Positions 6,967 through 64,000 of a stretch of DNA of 64,000 bases are shown here, one piece after another (positions within the stretch are counted from its first letter, which is position 1; the number at the start of each line of letters is the position of its first letter). Source of the DNA: Eublepharis macularius. Its lineage: Eukaryota; Chordata; Lepidosauria; Squamata; Eublepharidae. The translations under genes and the position numbers were made by a program. The notes beneath the pieces were generated by a model. That model searched no databases. It was given only the letters and a program-made list of their open reading frames with translations, and had not been told where the DNA came from. The stretch lies in contig NC_072807.1 in the NCBI RefSeq assembly GCF_028583425.1, positions 38,135,001 through 38,199,000 on the forward strand, given 5' to 3'.

Positions 6967-7153
6967 AGTAAAGAGTCCAGTAGCACCTTTAAGACTAACC
7001 AACTTTATTGTAGTATAAGCTTTCGAGAGCCACAGCTCTCTTTGTCCGATCTCGAAAGCTTATGCTACAATAAAGTTGGTTAGTCTTAAAAATGCTACTG
7101 GACTCTTTACTATTTTGCAACTACAGACCAACATGGCTACTTCTCTGGGTCTA
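6967..7153 (+). mobile_element. Palindromic family A retroposon, copy A1
   Basis: A 187 bp inverted repeat. Flanks CTTCTCCTCCAT (6955-6966) and CTTCTCATCCAT (7154-7165) agree at 11 of 12 positions. The hammerhead core at the centre is deleted or mutated on both strands, while the arms remain clear. Confidence 0.82.
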
Positions 7154-7831: not shown

Positions 7832-7996
7832 CAGGCCAAGCTACAAGTGACGAATGACACTTGCCTGGCAAGTGAACAGACTCACGCGTATTCCTCCCTG
7901 TTCACTTGCCAGTCACTTGTGCGCTACTTGATCACGAATACACGTGAGTCTGTTCACTTGCCAGGCAAGTGTCATTCGTCACTGGTAGCTTGACTC
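7832..7996. mobile_element. Foldback MITE (family B), copy B1
   Basis: Ends GGCCAAGCTACAAGTGACG and complement, with arms sharing ACACTTGCCTGGCAAGTGAA. The flanking bases do not give a clear duplication. Confidence 0.75.
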
Positions 7997-12205: not shown

Positions 12206-12453
12206 TATAACTCCATCTTTTCAGGGGTGTTCAAATCTGTCCTCTGATCTGAGATCACCACAGTATCTCACAGTTCATGTGGCCAAACACAGGTGGGGGA
12301 ATCACACCGCTCAATGTTCCTCACATCAAAAACTGTTGGCGCATCTGAAGAAGTGGGATATACAGCACAACCAGAACCACAACCGGGATAAAAATCTATT
12401 TGCCTTCAAGATGTCACAAGACTCCCATCTGGTTTTGCTTCTGCAGTGGACAA

Positions 12454-12651
12454 GAGCCAAGCTACAAGTGAGGAATGACACTTGCCTGGCAAGTGAACAG
12501 ACTCACGTGTATTCCTCCCTGTTCACTTGCCATTCACTTGCTCTCGACTTGATCAAGTGGAGTGCAAGTGAATGGCAAGTGAACAGGGAGGAATACACGT
12601 GAGTCTGCTCACTTGCCAGGCAAGTGTCATTCCTCACTTGTAGCTTGGCTC
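12454..12651. mobile_element. Foldback MITE (family B), copy B2
   Basis: A 198 bp near-perfect palindrome with ends GAGCCAAGCTACAAGTGA. Flanks CAA and TAA would be a 3 bp duplication with one change. Confidence 0.8.
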
Positions 12652-13551
12652 TAACACAGCTATCCCTCTAGAATCTGCCGGTCGAAGCAAATCTAGCATG
12701 TCAGAGGAGGGAAGTTTAAACTTAGCTGTCTTATTGGCAAACTAGTTTTCTATCATTTCTGGTGTGGAAGCAGCATTCAGTTGGGCAACCCCCGCCTTCC
12801 ATGCATGGGATCATGAGGACCATACTGGATGCGTTTTGTTCTTTGGGGGTAGAGATGGGATCTTTCCCCCTCTCCTAGTCCAACTAACCTCACAGAATTG
12901 GCAGTATGGACTATGTACACTAGAAAAATGTTGTAGAGATGAATGATGATTAAAAAATAAGGAATGGGCACACGGTATTTTTAGAAAGGCTATAAACGCT
13001 TCTTATTAAAAAAAAATCCTGCTGGGAATTTGGACACAGCTGTTGGGGAGTTTGCAATATTAAAAGAATGCCATTAAAAGAGGAGGAAGTTCACAGAAAG
13101 AGGAGCAGTGGGCGGAGAGCATTCATATAACGGCAGCTGATAAGCAGGAATGAGGAAACCGGAGGCTTAAGGCTCGGACCTCATCAAGTTCAGCTATTTA
13201 GGAAGTGAGCCAGCAGTTGCTCCAGAGTGCAAGAAAGCAAACGCAAATGGTCAGAAGCGTCACGTGGATTCTCTGCACAAACAAAGGGGCTGCTTTTGAG
13301 CAACCGCCTTCCATACATTTGAGGAAGTGCTCTACTCGTTGACCACAAACTGCTCTGCCCATTTTCCTATAAGTTAAAAGACTACAAGGAACATCAAAAG
13401 TGTCCTGGGAATCTCAATCAGAGGTCAAATCAGGCAAGATTTCCTTTTAGACGATAAAATAATAATTCAGAGACTGCATCGCCGTTAAGTATTAGGTTGG
13501 GAAGATATGATCAATGTTTCAGTTCACACCACTGATTTGAAGGAGGGCACC
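12652..13551. other. No recognisable gene
   Basis: Non-coding DNA between family B copy B2 and the CR1 end. Confidence 0.5.
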
Positions 13552-16202: not shown

Positions 16203-16220
16203 CCTAGATATTTATAGCAG

Positions 16221-16409
16221 ATGTGGGTCTAGTGGCAGCTTAGAGATCAACAAGATTTTCACGGTATAGGCTTTTGAGAGCCAGAGCTCTCTGATGAAGG
16301 GACCTCGGACTCTCGAAAGCCTATACCGGGAAAATCTTGTTGGTCTCTAAGCTGCCACTGGACCCAAAACCTGCTATTCTACTGCAGACCAACATGGCAA
16401 ACTACCTAT
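16221..16409 (+). mobile_element. Palindromic family A retroposon, copy A2 (older subfamily)
   Basis: A 189 bp inverted repeat of a diverged subfamily (AGCTTAGAGATCAACAAG... arms). Flanking sequences at 16203-16220 and 16410-16427 agree at 14 of 18 positions. CTGATGA and GAAA remain on the plus strand, but stems I and II have decayed. Confidence 0.7.
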
Positions 16410-17555: not shown

Positions 17556-17565
17556 CCTCTTCTGG

Positions 17566-17684
17566 AGCATCTGACGAAGGAAGCCTTGACTCTCAAAAGC
17601 TCAAACCCTAGTTGGCCTTTAAGGTGCTACTGGACCCGCACCTTGTTCTACTGCAGACCAACATGGCTACACACCTGAAAATAA
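17566..17684 (+). mobile_element. Family A retroposon, single-arm copy A3
   Basis: Only one arm is present, starting AGCATCTGACGA, at the hammerhead stem I. Flanks CCTCTTCTGG (17556-17565) and CCTCTTCCGG (17685-17694) agree at 9 of 10. It lies just after a SINE head at 17517-17550. Confidence 0.75.
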
Positions 17685-23773: not shown

Positions 23774-23925
23774 AAGACGAACCAACTTTACTGTAGCACA
23801 AGCTTTCGAGAATCACTGTTGTCTTCTTCAGATGCATCTGTGATGTTGGTTAGTCTTAAAGGTGCTACTGGACTCTTTTCTATTTTGCTACTGCAGACTA
23901 GCACGGCTAACTCCTCTGGATCTAA
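23774..23925 (+). mobile_element. Palindromic family A retroposon, copy A4
   Basis: A 152 bp copy with a shortened centre. Flanks GACACGTGCTT (23763-23773) and GACACATGCTT (23926-23936) agree at 10 of 11. The left arm keeps a minus-strand GCAT-CTGAAGA...GAAA-AGCT order with a degraded stem II. Confidence 0.78.
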
Positions 23926-25035: not shown

Positions 25036-25255
25036 CAGGGCCTTTTTTCTGGGAAAAGAGGTGGTGGAACTCGGGACCGCACAATGACATCATTTTGGGT
25101 CAGCTGGAACAAGGCAGAAGTTTTTTAAAGTTTAAATTGAGATCGCTAAACTCCCCTCTGTCTGGAAATCAGAGGGCGGGGCCACCAGCCATGTGACCAT
25201 TTTCAAGAGGTGCCGGAACTCCGTTCCACCACATTCCAGCTGCAAAAAAGCCCCG
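25036..25255. mobile_element. Non-autonomous hAT element (family C), 220 bp
   Basis: Ends CAGGGCCTTTTTTCTGGG and GCAAAAAAGCCCCG. The 8 bp flanks AGTCTCGG and CGTCTCGG agree at 7 of 8. The core shares CTCCCCTCTGTCTGGA and CCACCAGCCATGTGACC with three other copies. Confidence 0.85.
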
Positions 25256-29545: not shown

Positions 29546-29555
29546 GCTCCTCAGC

Positions 29556-29792
29556 AGGATCGGAGTCCAGTGGCACCTTAGAGACTAACAAGATTTTCAG
29601 GGTGTAAGCTTTTGAGAGTCACAGCTCCCTTCTTCAGATACCTCAAGACAGGAGCAGAAGATATCTGAAGAAGGGAGCTTTGGCCCTTGAAAGTTTATAC
29701 CCTTGAAAAACCCTGTTAGTCTCTAAGGTACCACTGGACTCAAATCCTGTGGTTCTATTGCGGACCAACATGGCTACCTAACTGAAACACTT
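29556..29792 (+). mobile_element. Palindromic family A retroposon, copy A5
   Basis: A 237 bp inverted repeat of the same subfamily as A2. Flanks GCTCCTCAGC (29546-29555) and GCTCCTCAAC (29793-29802) agree at 9 of 10. The plus-strand motif at 29661-29700 keeps CTGAAGA and GAAA. Its stem I has changed from GCAT/ATGC to ATAT/ATAC with the third pair still complementary (T-A for C-G). Confidence 0.78.
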
Positions 29793-30450: not shown

Positions 30451-31489
30451 AAGATTCACAACTCCTTCTCTTCTCTGCTGCACCAGCTCTCAGATCAAAG
30501 ACTCCTTCACACATTTTTACACTTCACAGAGAACAGAGAGCAGAAGCCTTTTGTGCAGAAGAAGACTCCTAGCCGCACACTTCCTCTCCTGGTCTCTCTT
30601 CCTCCCCACACCCTTGTTGAAGTCTACAATCATTCAACCCTATGGGGGAAAAAAAAACCTGTGTGTTGTTTCTGTGAGATTCCTGACACTTGGGGTGTTG
30701 ACGCTTACTAGAGAAAAGAGATGTTGAGCACCTCTGCTGGGAAATGAAATATTGCCTAACTCTAGAGTAACCACAAGAACAGAAAAAACAACTTTTTTTC
30801 TCTTTTTCTGCAGCGGGTGGCCTTTTCCCATAACTCTGGCCTCTCTGTTTTGCAACAATACAGCTATGCATCCTGCCGGGGTGGCTGCCCAGCGCCAACC
30901 ACATGCCGAGCAAATGCAAACCCCCTCGGGAGATCAAGATGAAGGCAAGGCTGGAGACAAGCCCACCTCAGCTGGTCTCTCTGGGGCAAGAGCCAAGAGG
31001 AAGGGGGCTGAGAAGCACACGGGCTCTGCCACAGCCTCTGCCGCTGGTTGCTCAAGCAGAGGGAGAAAGGGTTGACCAGCCCTTTGCCTCTGCTCCCCAA
31101 GTGATGTGGCAGTGGGTGGGACCAAAACGCTGGCCTTTCCACCCTTTCTTACGGCAAAACACTGCCCCACTTAAAAGGCCGCAGGCTTAGTCAGGGAAGC
31201 ATGCCGTGGCTTTTATGGTTTCAGGAGGGGGGAAAGAGAAAGAGAGACCCAGAACGGAAGCAGGAGGCTTTGAGCGTTCTTCGGGAATCTGCTCTATGTT
31301 CTATGGAAACTAAAAATGCTGGCTTCCAGCCTGCGGCAAGCGAGTCCTGTGTTATCACTACCACGCACAGGAGTCGACTTCTTTTCCTGAGCAGTGACAG
31401 TGGGGTAGCGTACATGATTTGCACGTGGAAGGATCCCACAAGGGTACGTAGATCCTACTGATCAGAGGATCAGTCTGTACTAGTCTGTA
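30451..31489. other. No recognisable gene
   Basis: Non-coding. Overlapping frames on both strands at 30750-31190 lack motifs. Confidence 0.45.
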
Positions 31490-31590
31490 GTAGCAGAAGG
31501 CATTTCCAAGTCCAGCAGCACTTTAAAGCCTGGAACATTGTGTATGAATGTCCTTAGGGTGCTACGGGACTTAAATTCTGTTCTACCAAT
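31490..31590. mobile_element. Family A relic, copy A6
   Basis: Degenerate arms (CAAGTCCAGCAGCACTTTAA and GGGTGCTACGGGACTTAAATTC) facing each other. No reliable flanking duplication or ribozyme core remains. Confidence 0.5.
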
Positions 31591-32118: not shown

Positions 32119-32236
32119 TGCATAAGAAGAAATCCTAGGCCTACTTAGAAGCAAAAACGAGACACAGGAAACCACTGCAAGGATCCCAAAAGAGCTTGAG
32201 ATCAGTTCAGTGAGCACAAGAGGAGTTTAAGACTTA

Positions 32237-32438
32237 GAGCCAAGCTACAAGTGACGCCTGACACAGGTTGGACACTTGTCAGCCTCCCTCAAGTTTTGAT
32301 GGGAAATGTAGGCGTCCTGGTCTTGCAGCTGTAATGGAGAGCAAAGATGTAAAACCAGGACGCCTACATTTCCCATCAAAACTTGAGGGGAGCTGACAAG
32401 TGTCCAACCTGTGTCAGGCGTCACTTGTAGCTTGGCTC
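32237..32438. mobile_element. Foldback MITE (family B), copy B3
   Basis: A 202 bp near-perfect palindrome with ends GAGCCAAGCTACAAGTGA and a 3 bp TTA duplication (32234-32236, 32439-32441), as in PIF/Harbinger. The inner sequence differs from B1/B2 but matches B4. Confidence 0.85.
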
Positions 32439-32954
32439 TTACTCTTCTTGAAAGGTAGACACCCTCCCCCCCTTGCCTTCCAGCAAACTGCTTTTGAAAC
32501 AGAGACGGGATTTCTGAAAGAATTTGCGATGTGGTTCAAAGGAAAAAGGGGTGGGGGAGAATCCTGAAAGATTCTGCCAGGAACGGGAAGCCTCTTGGAT
32601 GAGCTTTAAGCCTGCAGGAAGCAAACCCAGCAGCTGGACGGGGGAGCGTGCTGGTAAAAATAGGCGCATCACCTTACCGTGCACATGCGCCCCTGTCTGT
32701 AGCAGGAAGCACCAGGCAGAGCCAAAATAACAGCAAAGCTGCCCTTTGCACTTTCACATTATCCCTGCACGGGAAGAAAAGGAACAGCGATAATTCCCCC
32801 GCCCGGTAATACTAACTTAGGTGGGCGCGACTTCCAGATGCCGGCCAGTCTCAAGTGATAAGAAATGTTCATTAGGGTGTTAGTTGAGCAAGATCTGTTT
32901 GGTTGTTCTCTCCCACTGCTGATGGACTCTACTTGAGAAAGCCGGTCTTCTTCC

Positions 32955-34556: not shown

Positions 34557-34801
34557 GTATTGTCGAAGGCTTTCACGGCTGGAGAACAATGGTTGTTGTG
34601 GGTTTTCCGGGCTGTATTGCCGTGGTCTTGGCATTGTAGTTCCTGACGTTTCGCCAGCAGCTGTGGCTGGCATCTGTGACACTGAGAGATCTCTGTCTTT
34701 CGGTGCTACACGTCTGAAGATGCCAGCCACAGCTGCTGGCGAAACGTCAGGAACTACAATGCCAAGACCACGGCAATACAGCCCGGAAAACCCACAACAA
34801 C
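34557..34801 (-). mobile_element. Palindromic family D retroposon, copy D1
   Basis: A 245 bp inverted repeat with the extended arm (TTGTCGAAGGCTTTCACGG) on the left. Flanks CAGAACTTTTTGC (34544-34556) and CAGAACTTTCTGC (34802-34814) agree at 12 of 13. Confidence 0.82.
34711..34751 (+). ncRNA. Hammerhead ribozyme motif (family D, copy D1)
   Basis: CGT, CTGAAGA, extra T, GCCAGC, loop CACAGCT, GCTGGC, GAAA, ACGT, cleavage nucleotide C, AGG. The core and stem II are intact. Stem I has a G-G mismatch at its second pair. The left-arm counterpart on the minus strand has lost the CTGAAGA core. Confidence 0.4.
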
Positions 34802-35564
34802 CAGAACTTTCTGCATTTCCTGCGAGACCCCTACCAACTGGGTGGAAACAAAGGGGCTGAGCAGCCTCGGATATTCAGGCTGGGCTTTATGTGACATCTG
34901 ATTGCCATGTCTCATGTGTGAGCATTAAAAGTCCCTTGTGAGCACTTCCAAGAGGTATGGCAACACACTAGTTGGCGAATGAGCCCTCTCTGGACTCATG
35001 GCATGGCCGGAGCTTATTGCAATGTCACCCGCATTCCTTCCCCCTGCTCCGTCCCCATTGGGATGCAATAAATAACCATGTTACAGCATTTCAAACATAG
35101 CAAGAAGTTTCCAAACAGCTGTCTTATTCCTGGAGGCGGGGGAGGGGGTAGTAACTTGTTGCATGGCATGTTGCACAATTAAGCCAATTTCCCAAAATGC
35201 CTATGGATTATCTGCCACAGCTATTGGCTAATTGTTGTGAGCTGTGCATCTTCTCCCTACTAGCTTTTGATTTCTGAGATCTGTCAAGTTCTTGCTGTTG
35301 ATTATTGCAGTGCTATCACGCGCAAACCATACAGTCGCTTTGGTGTCCTCTCACTCAGTGGTTATTCCTTCTCTTTCTCTGGAGAAGGGCCACCGTCCCC
35401 ACTTCTGTTTGGATATCCGGGAACATAAGCAGCTGTTTTATGCCGTGTCAGATTGTCGGTCTGTTCGGATCTGGGTTGTCTACTTTGACAGGCTGGGGCT
35501 CTCCAAGATCTCAAGGTGAGAGAGGCCTTCCTTAGCATCGGCTATACAAGATAATTTTCACTGG

Positions 35565-36366: not shown

Positions 36367-36626
36367 CAGGGCTTTTTTTCTGGGAAAAGAGGTGGTGGAA
36401 CTCAGTGGGTTGCCCTCGGAGAAAAGGGTCACATGGCTGGTGGCCCCGCCCCCTGATCTCCAGACAGAGGGGAGTTGAGATTGCCCTCCGCGCCGCTAAG
36501 CGGCGCGGAGGGCAATCTCAACTCCCCTCTGTCTGGAGATCAGGGGGCGGGGCCACCAGCCATGTGACCGTTTTCAAGAGGTTCCGGAACTCCGTTTCAC
36601 CGCGTTCCAGCTGAAAAAAAGCCCTG
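36367..36626. mobile_element. Non-autonomous hAT element (family C), near-perfect palindrome
   Basis: A 260 bp palindrome centred on GCCGCTAAGCGGC, with terminal CAGGGCTTTTTTTCTGGG and a perfect 8 bp duplication CTCCTGTT (36359-36366, 36627-36634). Confidence 0.92.
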
Positions 36627-44522: not shown

Positions 44523-44935
44523 CAGGGCTTTTTTTTCTGGGAAAAGACATGGTGGAACTCAGTGAGTTGCCAGCACAGGGGGCAACTCTTGGTGGGAGGT
44601 AGTGCCCCTGGTACCACATGCACATGCACATGCACAAAGTGCGCACACACTTCCAGGACCACACAATGACATCACTTTGGGCCAGCTGGAACAAGGGGGG
44701 AGTTTTTTAAAGTTTAAATCGCCCTCAGTGAAAATGGTCACATGGCTGGTGGCCCCGCCCCCTCATCTCCAGACAGAGGGGAGTTTAGATTGCCCTCCAC
44801 TCCACTGAGTGGCACGGAGGGCAATCTCAACTCCCCTCTGTCTGGAGATCAGGGGGCGGGGCCACCAGCCATGTGACCATTTTCAAGAGGTTCCGGAACT
44901 CCGTTCTACCGCATTCCAGCTGAAAAAAAGCCCTG
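44523..44935. mobile_element. Non-autonomous hAT element (family C), 413 bp
   Basis: Same termini, with a perfect 8 bp duplication GTTTTCAG (44515-44522, 44936-44943). It holds a longer left arm including an ACATGC/ACATGCAC simple tract and a stretch resembling the 25.0 kb copy. Confidence 0.92.
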
Positions 44936-45927: not shown

Positions 45928-46057
45928 ATCCAGAGGAGTTAGCTGTGTTAGTCTGTAGTAGCAAAAATAGAAAAGAGTCCAGTAGCACCTTTAAGACTAA
46001 CCAACTTTACTGTAGCTTATGCTACAGTAGGTGCTACTGGACTCTTTTCTATTTTTG
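45928..46057 (-). mobile_element. Palindromic family A retroposon, copy A7
   Basis: A 130 bp copy in reverse orientation with its long arm (ATCCAGAGGAGTTAGC...) on the left. It is flanked by a perfect 12 bp duplication CTTCTTCCCTAG (45916-45927, 46058-46069). The central hammerhead is deleted. Confidence 0.82.
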
Positions 46058-47050: not shown

Positions 47051-47060
47051 GTACTAGTGA

Positions 47061-47273
47061 AATAGTAGAGTCCAGTAGCACCTTTAAGACTAACCAACTT
47101 TATTGTAGCATAAGCTTTTGAGAACCACAGCTCTCTTCGTCAGAAGCATCTGATGAAGAGAGCTGTGCTTCTCGAAAGCTTATGCTACAATAAAGTTGGT
47201 TAGTCTTAAAGGAGCTACTGGACTCTTTACTATTTTGCAACTATAGACTAACATGGCTAACTCCTCTGGATCT
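47061..47273 (+). mobile_element. Palindromic family A retroposon, copy A8
   Basis: A 213 bp inverted repeat of the same family, with a long right arm ending ...CTCCTCTGGATCT. Flanks GTACTAGTGA and GTACAAGTAA agree at 8 of 10 positions and are a plausible duplication. The dyad centre falls at the hammerhead stem I. Confidence 0.8.
47146..47185 (+). ncRNA. Hammerhead ribozyme motif (family A, copy A8, right arm)
   Basis: GCAT, CTGATGA, extra A, GAGAGC, TGTG, CTTCTC, GAAA, AGCT, T, ATGC. The core and stem I are perfect. Stem II keeps four Watson-Crick pairs and one wobble, with the loop-closing C-C pair lost. The opposite arm carries a minus-strand version whose GAAA has become AAAA. Confidence 0.5.
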
Positions 47274-48063: not shown

Positions 48064-48164
48064 TAGCAGCAGAAAAGAGCAAGAGTCCTGTAGCATCTAT
48101 AAGACTAACAAAATTAGTGGTAGAGTATGAGCTTTCATGAGTCACAGCTCACTTCTTCAGATAA
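48064..48164 (-). mobile_element. Family A retroposon, single-arm copy A9
   Basis: A 101 bp single-arm copy in reverse orientation, flanked by a perfect 11 bp duplication GAACATGGCTG (48053-48063, 48165-48175). Its 5' edge is the hammerhead stem I. Confidence 0.78.
48125..48164 (-). ncRNA. Hammerhead ribozyme motif (family A, copy A9)
   Basis: On the minus strand: TTAT, CTGAAGA, extra A, GTGAGC, loop TGTG, ACTCAT, GAAA, AGCT, cleavage nucleotide C, ATAC. Relative to copy A11, the second stem II pair is T-A instead of A-T, a compensated double change, and three stem I pairs survive. The motif forms the 5' edge of a single-arm element. Confidence 0.5.
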
Positions 48165-48621
48165 GAACATGGCTGGATAACTTTAGATGGCAAGAGACGG
48201 GCAATAACCAGGGGTGGGAGAGTGGATGTAAAAGGTGGACTATGCCTCAAGTTTGTAAGTAGGAGCATTTGGATAGAAAAGTCTATTTTCTATCCAATAG
48301 AAAAGTCTATTTAATTTTCCATAGAAGGTCCTGTTCTTATGGCCCCTCTAAGCCTTTTAGACATCTACGACACTTTTCAACTTGGTCCGATTCTTAAATT
48401 GCTGCAGCCGTTCAAATGGCAAGGTCTATGTTTTCCTCTGTCCTTACTCTTCTGATTAAGGAGCACCAGGAGAATTGTGCTCCGAAGAAAGTAGAAACTC
48501 AAGAGCAGATTTCTCTGACTGTCAAGTCTTTAGCCTACTGCTGTTTTTGTTTTTAAGCTGCAATCTGGGGTGAATTTGGAGGGCAAAACAACTGTAGGGA
48601 ATTTTGAAGAAATCAAACAAG

Positions 48622-48843
48622 GGCCGTTTCCGCACGTCTTACCTGCCTGCGGAACATCGTGTGAAAGACCCAAAGACAGTGTCTTCTCGCCTGAAATCGT
48701 GCCAGGAAGACGCCATTACCTGGAAGTTTTGCACGATTTCACATAAAACTCCTGGATAACAGTGTCTTCCTGGCATGATTTTGCGCAAGAAGACACTGTC
48801 TTTTGGGTCTTTCCGCAGGCAGGTAAGACGTGTGGAAACGGCC
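48622..48843. mobile_element. Foldback MITE (family E), 222 bp
   Basis: Long inverted repeats GGCCGTTTCCGCACGTCTTA and complement, with a 3 bp AAG duplication (48619-48621, 48844-48846). The inner halves also pair (AGACAGTGTCTTC). Confidence 0.8.
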
Positions 48844-55769: not shown

Positions 55770-56018
55770 CAGGGCTTTTTTTCTGGGGAAAGAGGTGGTG
55801 GAACTCAGTGGGTTGCCCTCAGAGAAAATGGTCACATGGCTGGTGGCCCCACCCCCTGATCTCCAGACAGAGGGGAGTTGAGATTGCCCTCCACGCCGCT
55901 TAGGCAATCTCAACTCCCCTCTGCCTGGAGATCAGGGGGTGGGGCCACCAGCCATGTGACCATTTTCAAGAGGTTCCGGAACTCCATCCCCCCGTGTTCC
56001 TGCTGAAAAAAAGCCCTG
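55770..56018. mobile_element. Non-autonomous hAT element (family C), 249 bp
   Basis: Same termini. Flanks GGTAGTAC and GGTAGCAC agree at 7 of 8. The two arms are near-complementary around a short centre. It lies in intron 1 of the KLF13-like gene. Confidence 0.9.
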
Positions 56019-57290: not shown

Positions 57291-57356
57291 GAAGCAAAAG
57301 GAGATGGTTGTTGTGGACTTTCTGGGCTGTATCGCCGTGGTCTTGGCATTGTAGTT

Positions 57357-57397
57357 CCTGACGTTTCGCCAGCAGCTGTGGCTGGCATCTTCAGAGG
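57357..57397 (-). ncRNA. Hammerhead ribozyme motif (family D, copy D2, left arm)
   Basis: On the minus strand: CCT, CTGAAGA, one extra T, GCCAGC, 7-nt loop CACAGCT, GCTGGC, GAAA, stem III ACGT (self-complementary), cleavage nucleotide C giving a canonical GUC site, then AGG pairing with CCT. The core is intact and stem II is a perfect 6 bp. Stem I is only 3 bp, so activity is uncertain. Confidence 0.5.
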
Positions 57398-57433
57398 TGT
57401 AGCACCAAAAGACAGAGATCTCTCAGATCTACA

Positions 57434-57474
57434 CCTCTGAAGATGCCAGCCACAGCTTCTGGCGAAACATCAGG
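57434..57474 (+). ncRNA. Decayed hammerhead motif (family D, copy D2, right arm)
   Basis: This is the inverted counterpart of the minus-strand motif. CCT, CTGAAGA, T, GCCAGC, loop, TCTGGC, GAAA, ACAT, C and AGG are readable. One stem II pair (C-T) and the stem III palindrome (ACGT to ACAT) are damaged. Confidence 0.4.
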
Positions 57475-57749
57475 AACTACAATGCCAAGACCACGGCTAT
57501 ACAGCCCGGAAAATCCAAAACAACCATCGTTCTCCAGCTGTGAAAGCCTTCAACAATATATTGAAGCAAAAGGAGGTTTGCACAGCACTTTCTTTTTGCC
57601 ACACAGGACAATCCACAGAAAAGGGGGCCAAAATTCTCAGAGGGAAGGAAGGGGGCTGCTTTACTTCCCACCAGATTCCACCTTGAAGCTATGAGTGCCT
57701 CGCGGTGACCAGTTTCTGGAGGGCAGCCAGTGTTCGTATGTAGAGAATT

Positions 57750-57872
57750 AGAACAAAATTCAAGTCCAGCAGCAACTTAAAAAACCAACACAATTTTCAG
57801 AGGGATAAGCTGTTGTGAGTCAAAGCCCACCTGAAAGAATGTACTCAGCATTCTAGTAGCACTTTTAAATAT
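57750..57872. mobile_element. Family A relic, copy A10
   Basis: Decayed arms beginning TTCAAGTCCAGCAGCAACTT and ending TCTAGTAGCACTTTTAA. Only traces of the minus-strand core remain. Confidence 0.45.
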
Positions 57873-58839: not shown

Positions 58840-59010
58840 TGATTAACTAGGGCTGGCAAGTAGCAGAGTTAGTACTTGGATGGGAGACTACTAAGGAAGA
58901 CCAGGGTTACTATACGGAAGAAGGCAATGACAAGCCACACCTGCTCATCTCTTGCGTTGCAACTCCATAAGGGATTGCCATGAGTTGGTTGCAACTTGAC
59001 AACACTTTAT
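58840..59010 (+). mobile_element. 5S rRNA-derived SINE with Bov-B-like 3' end
   Basis: GTTAGTACTTGGATGGGAGA C (58868-58888) matches the 5S rRNA C-box region almost exactly. The 3' end GATTGCCATGAGTTGGTTGC AACTTGACAACACTTTA parallels the Bov-B terminus at 30210. Confidence 0.85.
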
Positions 59011-59057
59011 TACTATTACTATTGTTATTTTCAAAGACAGAAAGGCAAGTTGGGATG

Positions 59058-59306
59058 TAAAATAGTAAAGAGTCCAGTAGCACCTTGAAGACTAACCAAC
59101 TTTATTGTCGCATAAGCTTTCGAGAACCATAGCTCTCTTTGTCAGATGCATCAGCTTTCGAGAACCAGATGATGCATCTGACGAAGAGAGCTGTGGCTCT
59201 CGAAAGCTTATGCGACAATAAAGTTGGTTAGTCTTAAAGGTACTACTGCACTCTTTGCTATTTTGCAACTACAGACAAACAAGGCTAACTCCTCTGGATC
59301 TATGAC
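59058..59306 (+). mobile_element. Palindromic family A retroposon, copy A11
   Basis: A 249 bp near-palindrome whose arms share GTCCAGTAGCACC... and its complement, with a longer right arm ending ...CTCCTCTGGATCTATGAC. It is flanked by a perfect 12 bp duplication CAAGTTGGGATG (59046-59057 and 59307-59318). Both arms carry the hammerhead: the plus-strand one is intact, and the minus-strand one has a single core change (CTGACAA). An AATAAA (59217-59222) follows the plus-strand motif. Confidence 0.85.
59174..59213 (+). ncRNA. Hammerhead ribozyme motif (family A, copy A11)
   Basis: Read 5' to 3': stem I strand GCAT (59174-59177), core CTGACGA (59178-59184), one extra A, stem II GAGAGC/GCTCTC closed by TGTG (59186-59201), core GAAA (59202-59205), a self-complementary stem III AGCT (59205-59208), cleavage nucleotide T (59209), and stem I return strand ATGC (59210-59213). 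All invariant hammerhead positions are present. The extra A after A9 has a natural precedent in the plus-strand hammerhead of chrysanthemum chlorotic mottle viroid. A 4-nt palindromic stem III would favour a dimeric active form. The motif is sense to the KLF13-like transcript. Confidence 0.6.
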
Positions 59307-59318
59307 CAAGTTGGGATG

Positions 59319-60406
59319 AAGGCCTTTTATCCTTCACTGGATTCTGGCTTTCAGTAGGCTCCTATCCCCTCATTTACATCTGCAGATGGCAATTGAGCAG
59401 CCCCCCTGTGGGGCTGCTGAGGCACTCGAGAGTCATGCAAGGTGGCAGAGTGGAAAGGAGGTGTGCCAGTGAAGCCCTTCTGCTAAACCCACTGGCACAT
59501 GGCCAGTGGGTTTATTCATTTCAAGGACGCTGGCACAAGAAATCTGGCTGTGGATTGTGTCTGACCATTAATGAATGAAAACTCAGCCTCAAGCAACAGA
59601 ATACGCTTGCACTGGCCCTGAGGGCAGCTAAAGCTATTAACCTTTTCAGGACCCTGCTTGACCTACAGGAGGGCAACTGGCAGGGGAGAATTTCACTGTT
59701 AATTGTTTTAATTTTCTTCTTCTGTGCACTCCCACATTCGCTGGCACTCATTGCTTTTTAATGGGGGTGGGAATTTAAATGACCCAACTCTTTAGAGTCT
59801 GCAATGTTGACTTTTATAAATGCTTCTTCTCAGGAAAGCATTAGTGCTTCCTGAAACAGAAAGCTGCCTTGTACTGCCAGAGAAGTTTGAGAAATCTAGC
59901 GCTTCCCTTCTCCAGAGCACAGAAGGGCCAATTGCTCCTTAAGTTGCCCGTGAAACACCTGTTGTTTTCCTGCTGAAAATCGCCACCCCCTCACAAGCCA
60001 CTTTCACTTCATCTGCCCATTGCAAATCGACTCTCCCAATCAGATTTCCCCCGGTATGGGCAAGAGCAATATGGGGCGGTGATTTGTGTCTGGAAAACGG
60101 GGGGAAGGGGAAAGCTTGTTGGAGTAAATTAGCAGAGTAAATTAGTACGCAGTAGAATAAAAGAAGAACAAACTCCAGTGTTTTAGCTCTAGGGGGAAAA
60201 ACCCTTTACTACATATTAGGGATAAAGGGTAAATTTGGTGCGAAAATAAAGAATAACAGCTAACTAACTGCTACATCCAGATGGTCAGACTAGAACTCTA
60301 AACAATCCGTACTAAGACTGCAAAAAGTCTGAAGCCTGAACAGAACAAAGAGCAGTAAACCTTTAGTATAAGTTGCTAGTTAACTGCCCCCCAATAAACT
60401 GGTTGC
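59319..60406 (+). other. Intron 1 of KLF13-like, unassigned part
   Basis: No gene. 60120-60400 is AT-rich and, with 60815-61100, forms one older element split by the hAT insertion at 60415. Its class is unknown. Confidence 0.4.
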
Positions 60407-62640: not shown

Positions 62641-63915
62641 TCCTGTCCAGGGGCATGGACAGTATGGTACATCTCTCACCTTTCCACCACTAACAATTAT
62701 ACTGATTGGCAGCTTCAGGCCATGCAAGTAAGAGTTAAGGAAAAACTGCAGCCCAGAACTCAAACTCCAGTGAAACTCTAGCAAGCAAAGAAGTTCTCGG
62801 TCAAGAATGCTCCAGCACGATGTCAGAAAACACAGCACTGCAGATGTTGCAGGGATGTGACACAAAAGCCGAAAGCAACTATGCTGGTGCAAAATTTTGG
62901 AGCAGGGACACGAGAGAGTTTTTGGCTGCAACTAGTGGGCCCAAGATCACTTCTTTCTGGGGGCGGTGGTGGTCGTGTGCGCTGTGTTTTTTGAGCGAGG
63001 GGTCACCTAAACAGCCACCCACTTGGGATTCAAAAGATGTCAAAAGAAAACAACAATGCACGCAAAGAGAGAAGCACAATTCTAACATTTCAAAGTGCAA
63101 AAGTTGCATTCTTTCTTTGTCTGGCTGTGCACAGATGCAGCGTGTCCAAACGTGGAAACCTGGAACGAGTCTGACTCAGCCAGGTGGTTTGTAGCTGTTT
63201 TATAACTTCGAGTAAGCCTCCGCTCTGTTTCCCCCCCCCTTTCCACTCCAAATTATCCTGGATCAGCTGGTTGGAAGTCAGATATTGCTGACAGAGAGAG
63301 AGACTGAGAGAGAGAGAAACCACAACCTAAACGAAGGTCAACCATTTCAGAGGCATTTTCTTGAAACACGTCTATATTTGCTGCTTGCTCCTCGCACTCT
63401 TGGCCGTGGCCATCCAAGAGGACAAGGAGGGTCACGTGGCTTGTGAGATCATTATCTGCCTGCCTATTGTGAGACAACCGGCAGACAATCAGAGTTATTT
63501 AAGTGCAGACTCTGAGGCCAGACAAACATATCCTGTGGCTTGCCAAGCTTGCTGTTTCAGCACTTTGCATAAAACATCCACTTGGGCTTGGGAAAAAAAT
63601 AAGTTAGAAATATTAACTGTGTAATCCTGCAAAGAAACAGTCTCAGGACAGGAGCTGCACTAACACAAGAAGTCTGGGGGCCTGAGGCCGAACATTCAAA
63701 TCCCGCAAGTTGGAAAGTAGCGAAGCAGTTTAAACGACGTTTCTCCCTGACATGTTATCTTTGCACAGGCAGAGGGGTTCGGACCCTGTAGAGCAGCCAA
63801 GGCCACACACTCAGCCGTTCCTATCTGCTGGCAGAAGTGGCCCTGCACAAGGAAAGCTGTCCCACGTGGTTCTGTGGACTATTGGCCCTGCAGAAGGTTT
63901 GTGCTGTGGAGACTT
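62641..63915 (+). other. Intron 1 of KLF13-like, right part
   Basis: Non-coding, with a GAGA tract at 63294-63318. No second KLF exon is visible before the window ends. Confidence 0.5.
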
Positions 63916-64000
63916 GGGCCAAGCTACAAGTGACGCCTGACACAGATTGGACACTTGTCTGCTTCCCTCAAGTTTTGGCGGGAAATGGAGGCAGCTTGGC
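63916..64000. mobile_element. Foldback MITE (family B), copy B4, cut by window edge
   Basis: The left arm GGGCCAAGCTACAAGTGACG plus CAAGTTTTGGCGGGAAATGG matches copy B3. The right arm should follow outside the window. Confidence 0.75.

Follow-up and report, generated by a model that had tools for sequence, protein, structure and literature searches.

The stretch of DNA analysed here (the window, 64 kb) holds a string that a preliminary description had read as a near-perfect hammerhead ribozyme (HHR) inside a palindromic repeat. The locus raises the question of what kind of element carries such a motif, and of how the motif came to lie in a palindrome. Most likely, it is a minimal HHR belonging to a Penelope-like element (PLE). 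The coordinates of the motif, of its host palindrome and of the related insertions are collected in Table 1.

Table 1. The hammerhead motif, its host palindrome and the other insertions of families A and B in the window. Arm ends are given in nucleotides after H17 (short arm; long arm).
Feature	Position	Strand	Duplication	Arm ends	Descriptor match, C3 to H17	Remarks
HHR motif	59174..59213	+			59178-59209 (+)	Minimal type I hammerhead; sequence, descriptor and shuffles, fold
A9	59058..59306		12/12, perfect	56; 97		Whole head-to-head palindromic insertion, 249 bp
A9, left duplication copy	59046..59057	+				12 bp, CAAGTTGGGATG
A9, right duplication copy	59307..59318	+				12 bp, CAAGTTGGGATG
A9, left arm	59058..59167	-		56		Short tail, end counted from its own H17; HHR core decayed to CTGACAA
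A9, right arm	59171..59306	+		97		Long tail; holds the 59174-59213 motif
Extra partial HHR, 3' half	59148..59167	-				Upstream of left-arm HHR
A1	6967..7153		11/12	50; 92		Palindrome
A2	16220..16408		15/18	48; 86		Palindrome, more diverged subfamily
A3	17563..17681	+	9/10, weak (score 7)	79 (alignment gapped)		Single; begins 8 nt upstream of C3
A4	23774..23925		10/11	26 (left arm)		Palindrome; left arm short of usual site
A5	29554..29792		8/8	52; 96		Palindrome, more diverged subfamily
A6	45928..46057		12/12			Palindrome; left tail long
A7	47059..47272		8/9, weak	53; 91	47150-47181 (+)	Palindrome; right-arm HHR intact by descriptor
A8	48064..48165	-	11/11	65	48160-48129 (-)	Single; HHR intact by descriptor
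B1	34558..34802		14/16, overlapping right arm by 4 nt	54; 88		Head-to-head palindrome
B2	57306..57563		13/13	54; 89	57394-57360 (-)	Palindrome; intact HHR on minus-strand arm

In the standard numbering of hammerhead positions, the conserved core reads CUGANGA ... GAAA ... UH. Inspection of the sequence and a descriptor search both find this order in the motif. In stem I, GCAT (59174-59177) pairs with ATGC (59210-59213). The core CTGACGA occupies 59178-59184, and stem II is formed by GAGAGC (59186-59191) and GCTCTC (59196-59201) around the loop TGTG. The GAAA lies at 59202-59205 and H17 is the T at 59209; cleavage is predicted at the bond 3' of 59209. Stem II does not directly adjoin the core nucleotide A9, as an extra A intervenes at 59185 (a second family, B, has a T there). 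Stem III is the self-complementary AGCT at 59205-59208, which gives 2 bp and no loop. An intramolecular stem III of several base pairs is absent, and AGCT alone could pair only between two molecules or between tandem copies. The stems, core, extra A, GAAA, H17 and coordinates of the preliminary description all match the sequence. Its palindromic repeat is likewise borne out, the arms 59056-59156 and 59167-59267 being 91% complementary; its copy A11 is presumably the insertion we call A9.

The descriptor comprised the core, at most one extra nucleotide, stem II of at least 4 bp, H17, stem I of at least 3 bp, and a stem III in the form of a 2-nt palindrome or of a hairpin; both strands were scanned. 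Four HHRs were recovered in the window, whereas 300 dinucleotide shuffles averaged 0.0067 and only two of them contained any. All four fall in copies of families A and B. The core pattern without stems matched twice in the window and never in 100 shuffles. The same pattern matched 20 times in other DNA (once in a viral and 19 times in a microbial collection); stem I of at least 4 bp together with stem II of at least 5 bp was found in none of these 20, and we regard them as chance background and not as relatives of the family. Because the shuffles are nearly empty and no background match carries both stems, the motif is not attributed to chance, in agreement with what had been claimed for it from the letters alone.

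Against the whole window, Rfam gave no match of any family at the gathering thresholds. With E values up to 10, the interval 58900-59500 gave 12 matches, none of them to a hammerhead. A covariance-model search was the check that the preliminary description had set for itself, and its outcome went against that description. We hold this test to be weak because motifs of this type have almost no stem III; we ascribe the failure of the models to a stem III that is nearly missing and to the extra base after core nucleotide A9. Of the 12 matches, 10 are to microRNA families (e.g., MIR821 and mir-3160) and two to plastid 3'UTR families, all below the family cut-offs; we rejected these identities and read the matches as an effect of the long palindrome. 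The MIR821 and mir-3160 matches lie at 59076-59247 on both strands, are probably caused by the long hairpin, and are a possible source of false microRNA annotation. A covariance model built from 10 family-A segments recovered those 10, by construction (53-74 bits), as well as weak fragments. Family B was not listed by this model at E values up to 10, which we count against the PLE reading. The model reached 30.5 bits on the 20 viral and microbial background loci (locus L011), so its weak scores are not evidence.

BLAST and profile searches of the window found 16 family-A arms in nine insertions, A1-A9. Three weaker profile hits lie at 12336-12449 (E = 3e-9), 57731-57828 (7e-9) and 31477-31531 (4e-4). 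Seven of the nine insertions are palindromic, with heads joined and tails outward; the single ones are A3 and A8. Of the 13 HHR segments located in families A and B together, only 4 are intact by descriptor, which also counts against the PLE reading. The partial HHR in the left arm of A9 lies 38 nt from the matching part of the left-arm HHR, as if it derived from a template jump. By eye, the A6 arms join near the predicted cleavage site. The A6 centre, also by eye, is one base off the junction of two cDNAs that both end at the cleavage site; as a single case this was not used.

Family B is represented by two palindromes. In its HHR, the core CTGAAGA and one extra base are followed by a stem II of 6 bp, GAAA, a self-complementary ACGT and C17; one of the three full-stretch segments passes the descriptor. 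Family B matches the printed template RNA of PAc (Poseidon), an experimentally studied PLE of the green anole, Anolis carolinensis (PMC11167929), with 73-77% identity at four places (E = 1e-18, 2e-17, 2e-13 and 4e-13). The reading frame that opens with the ATG at stem II gives MPATAAGETSG (MPATASGETSG in B2R) against MPAIDVGETSG in PAc, a comparison that covers the N-terminal part; in both, the HHR lies at the start of the ORF. The motif thus shares its window with a family that is related to a known PLE and has an HHR of the same design. This relationship to PAc also points to a reptile as the likely host. Family A is unlike PAc in its stem sequences and has no open frame at this place: A9 has AAG instead of ATG, and in-frame stops close the frame that PAc keeps open, which again counts against the PLE reading. 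No significant DNA similarity between family A and PAc was found in four arms compared (the best was A3, 22 nt, E = 0.05). In an exact-letter search of printed articles, a family-B string occurred solely in PMC11167929, and a 13-nt family-A string occurred in the unrelated PMC3567022, which we take as chance. This search says little, since most sequence sets stand outside the main texts.

Target-site duplications were scored for the 11 insertions (nine of family A, two of family B), nine of which are palindromes. With the first boundaries, 7 of the 11 scored at least 8, and none of 110 swapped flank pairs did; the scores below 8 were those of B1 (5), B2 (7), A3 (7) and A7 (6). For a second scoring, the ends were set to abut the first matches, the two family-B boundaries were reset by eye, and narrower windows were used. 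A score of at least 8 was then reached by 9 of the 11 (A3 with 7 and A7 with 6 staying weak). Of 3000 random pairs 21 scored as high, and of 110 swapped pairs none did; this second figure is partly circular, and ends and duplications are not independent, because the ends were chosen from the first scoring and by eye. The clearest duplications, in A6, A8, A9 and B2, are 11-13 bp long.

The arm ends fall into two clusters, at 48-56 and 86-97 nt after H17, each with seven arms and each drawn from both families. The left arm of A4 and the single copies A8 and A3 end outside both clusters, and A4R, A6L and A6R gave no H17 and so stood outside this measurement. Three of the family-B ends were taken from the PAc alignment, and that of B2R was placed by eye; the duplication scoring would shift B2R by about 2 nt. 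All nine palindromes have unequal tails, one arm being long and the other reaching no further than the near site, as read from the alignments in the case of A6 and A4R. Under an even and independent choice between two sites, nine of nine has a probability of about 0.002, in a test conceived after seeing the data. A stem in the tail is paired in 93.8% of cells (8 arms), compared to at most 37.5% in slid controls; its covariation, reached by 95 of 500 shuffles, is no better than chance.

The 5' ends of the single copies lie near stem I, adjoining the duplication (weak in A3); that of A8 is about 4-5 nt before C3. By eye, the sequence shared by the other full-motif family-A arms stops about 5-8 nt upstream of C3. 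In the family-A palindromes, the other arm or unrelated bases start beyond this shared part; B1R and B2L have at least 20 nt further upstream in common. We infer that the 5' end of the fragment is that of the transcript, and that the fragments span from there to an internal start of reverse transcription. This fits the view taken in the PAc report that uncut RNA is the dominant substrate (PMC11167929), as HHR cleavage would leave another 5' end.

We assign the motif to a PLE because families A and B share the distances from HHR to end, the duplications (11-13 bp in the clearest cases), the head-to-head pairing and the long and short tails. PLEs encode a telomerase-like reverse transcriptase with a GIY-YIG endonuclease and may have a tail of 30-40 bp between two start sites of reverse transcription, a spacing that the two clusters of ends reproduce. 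The HHR would sit near the start of the PLE coding transcript, and the element's enzyme would begin reverse transcription about 50 or 90 nt downstream of the ribozyme cleavage site. Copying back toward the 5' end, it would yield a fragment of about 100-135 nt. Usually, both nicked target strands would receive such a fragment, which would give a head-to-head palindrome with tails outward and an 11-13-bp target-site duplication. Family A would have been mobilised by a PLE enzyme, the clustered ends would be reverse transcription start sites, and the two strands would have been primed separately. We regard the whole account, comprising a PLE HHR, a two-site start of reverse transcription and head-to-head insertion with target-site duplication, as very probable.

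The main-text passages on PAc offer several points of comparison (PMC11167929). PAc likewise has two reverse transcription start sites a tail apart, and both target strands are cut and extended. The in vitro starts are at +111 to +118 of the ORF, which by our own count on the printed template is 82-89 nt after H17. The start site was alike on both strands in vitro, whereas the tails of the window palindromes are always unequal between arms; we count this difference against the PLE reading. Head-to-head copies, a tail difference and target-site duplications also recall Penelope elements of the rotifer Adineta vaga, in which pLTRs lie inverted in head-to-head order, one of them carries a 31-bp tail at its 3' end, and the copies quoted have 8-10-bp duplications (PMC3846280). 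In the rotifer, however, most arms enclose ORFs or captured genes, and a duplication is missing from some copies (PMC3846280); the pairs in the window are short terminal fragments only. The main-text passages on PAc (PMC11167929) and on the rotifer Penelope (PMC3846280), together with a literature search, yielded no statement of always-unequal tails.

Whether the pairing of the motif has been maintained was assessed on 10 family-A segments. In these, 84% of stem cells are paired, compared to at most 46% in six slid controls. Changes on both sides were seen in 3 of 10 pairs and 5 of 100 cells, in a set that is small and made of related sequences. The observed percentage paired was reached by 3 of 500 shuffles, the covariation score by 1, and the number of cells changed on both sides by 9; the number of pairs changed on both sides (reached by 45) and the number of pair types (229) are not unusual. 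The right arm alone (59172-59306) folds into the ribozyme, with probabilities of 0.84-0.87 for stem I and 0.94-0.95 for stem II. A transcript of the palindrome (59058-59306) is predicted to form a hairpin of -153.6 kcal/mol, in which the ribozyme pairs have a probability of 0.0. Because of this long hairpin, the ribozyme of A9 is probably inert and the copy a fossil. Activity, if any, probably belongs to transcripts of active elements and not to the A9 locus, given the hairpin fold, the small fraction of intact segments and the dependence of PAc ribozyme cleavage in vitro on PAc's own protein (PMC11167929). In such transcripts, cleavage may proceed as a dimer or with the help of protein.

The ribozyme itself is not new, as PLE hammerheads have been described since 2014. 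Minimal HHRs of PLEs were reportedly the subject of Cervera and De la Pena (2014), and small hammerhead variants are said, in the title of Lunse, Weinberg and Breaker (2017), to cleave RNA as dimers. In the relevant passages of two articles, minimal PLE HHRs have little or no helix III and the type I order, may self-cleave as dimers, and occur scattered through animal genomes and within PLE pseudo-LTRs (PMC6155905, PMC7761336). The motif resembles them, by description, in its near-absent helix III and type I order. The preliminary interpretation is supported in part. The motif is a minimal hammerhead with a self-complementary 2-bp stem III, and dimer self-cleavage is given as a possibility for PLE motifs of this kind (PMC7761336). 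The earlier expectation of mainly-dimer cleavage is doubtful for the copy at 59058-59306 because the palindrome arms form a hairpin that excludes the ribozyme pairs. The carrier, most likely PLE terminal fragments placed head to head with a target-site duplication, had been left unnamed.

Four other explanations were weighed. A chance hammerhead-like string without RNA function would agree with the silence of Rfam's hammerhead models and with the 9 of 13 located segments that fail the descriptor; it is practically negligible in view of the shuffles, the pair changes and the recurrence of the design in a second family whose sequence is different. That the palindromes are foldback DNA transposons (MITEs) with a fortuitous hammerhead-like string is a very remote prospect. 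The inverted repeats are indeed long and near-perfect, and the window holds other palindrome families without a seen HHR. However, the arm tails are unequal, the head ends vary, A3 and A8 are single and the clearest duplications have 11-13 bp; the PAc relative, family B, has the same HHR design and end geometry in a different sequence. We also consider it highly improbable that family A is a non-LTR retrozyme, non-autonomous and spread via circular RNA from tandem ribozyme cleavage. Its short length, lack of the PAc frame and type I HHR would suit a retrozyme, as would the 38-nt partial tandem HHR in A9 and a proposal that PLEs move metazoan retrozymes (PMC7761336). Yet the window copies include no direct-repeat HHR pair 150-300 bp apart, the starts of A3 and A8 lie close to stem I instead of at the cleavage site, and the layout is head-to-head.

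The explanation that carries most weight after the PLE account in full is that the second arm arose by fold-back self-priming of the first strand and not by a second target-primed start; we judge this unlikely, though it deserves serious consideration. Self-priming, with an antisense template, was suggested for the rotifer Penelope (PMC3846280). It would suit head-to-head palindromes, and at several junctions self-complementary strings (GATGCATC, AAGCTT) can be seen by eye in the heads. The likeness of arms within a copy is 0.89 in A2 and 0.85 in A5, compared to 0.77-0.81 between copies, where the subfamilies apparently differ, and the A9 arms have one base change in common that is absent from the other arms printed. 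But self-priming gives no reason for a fixed second site, and the short ends nonetheless cluster in both families. In A1, A7 and A9, moreover, identity within the palindrome (0.92-0.98) lies inside the range between palindromes (0.88-0.98). As these ranges overlap, and as A2 and A5 look like different subfamilies, arm identity does not distinguish one template from two. We prefer separate priming of the two strands on account of the clustered ends.

The window holds further palindromes. A third family (36421-36575, 44729-44885, 55824-55967 and a half copy at 25146-25205) has 87-94% identity between copies and no HHR was seen in it. Another group (7837-7992, 12453-12652, 32229-32446 and a part at 63910-63992) has common ends like AGAGCCAAGCTACAAGTGA. 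By eye, this AGAGCCAAGCTACAAGTGA group may have TTA/TAA flanks, which we take to be as in Harbinger-type MITEs. Its copy at 12453 seems to be inserted in the tail of the family-A relic at 12336-12449. A lone imperfect palindrome lies at 48669-48806, with arms that are 79% complementary.

The role of PLE hammerheads is called unknown in a review (PMC7761336). We offer as a speculation, itself rather unlikely, that the two target strands are primed one after the other in a set order, each at its own site on a single structured RNA. Tail region and HHR would then form a two-step device for initiation and joining, in which the self-complementary strings of the HHR join the cDNA ends. If this were true, minimal PLE hammerheads would gain a role at the level of DNA, besides or instead of RNA cleavage. 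Within 64 kb, nine palindromic insertions from two families have unequal tails and mostly measurable ends, which provides a simple statistic that can be taken genome-wide. This tail statistic is relevant to the priming of the two target strands by PLEs and to the place of the ribozyme in that process.
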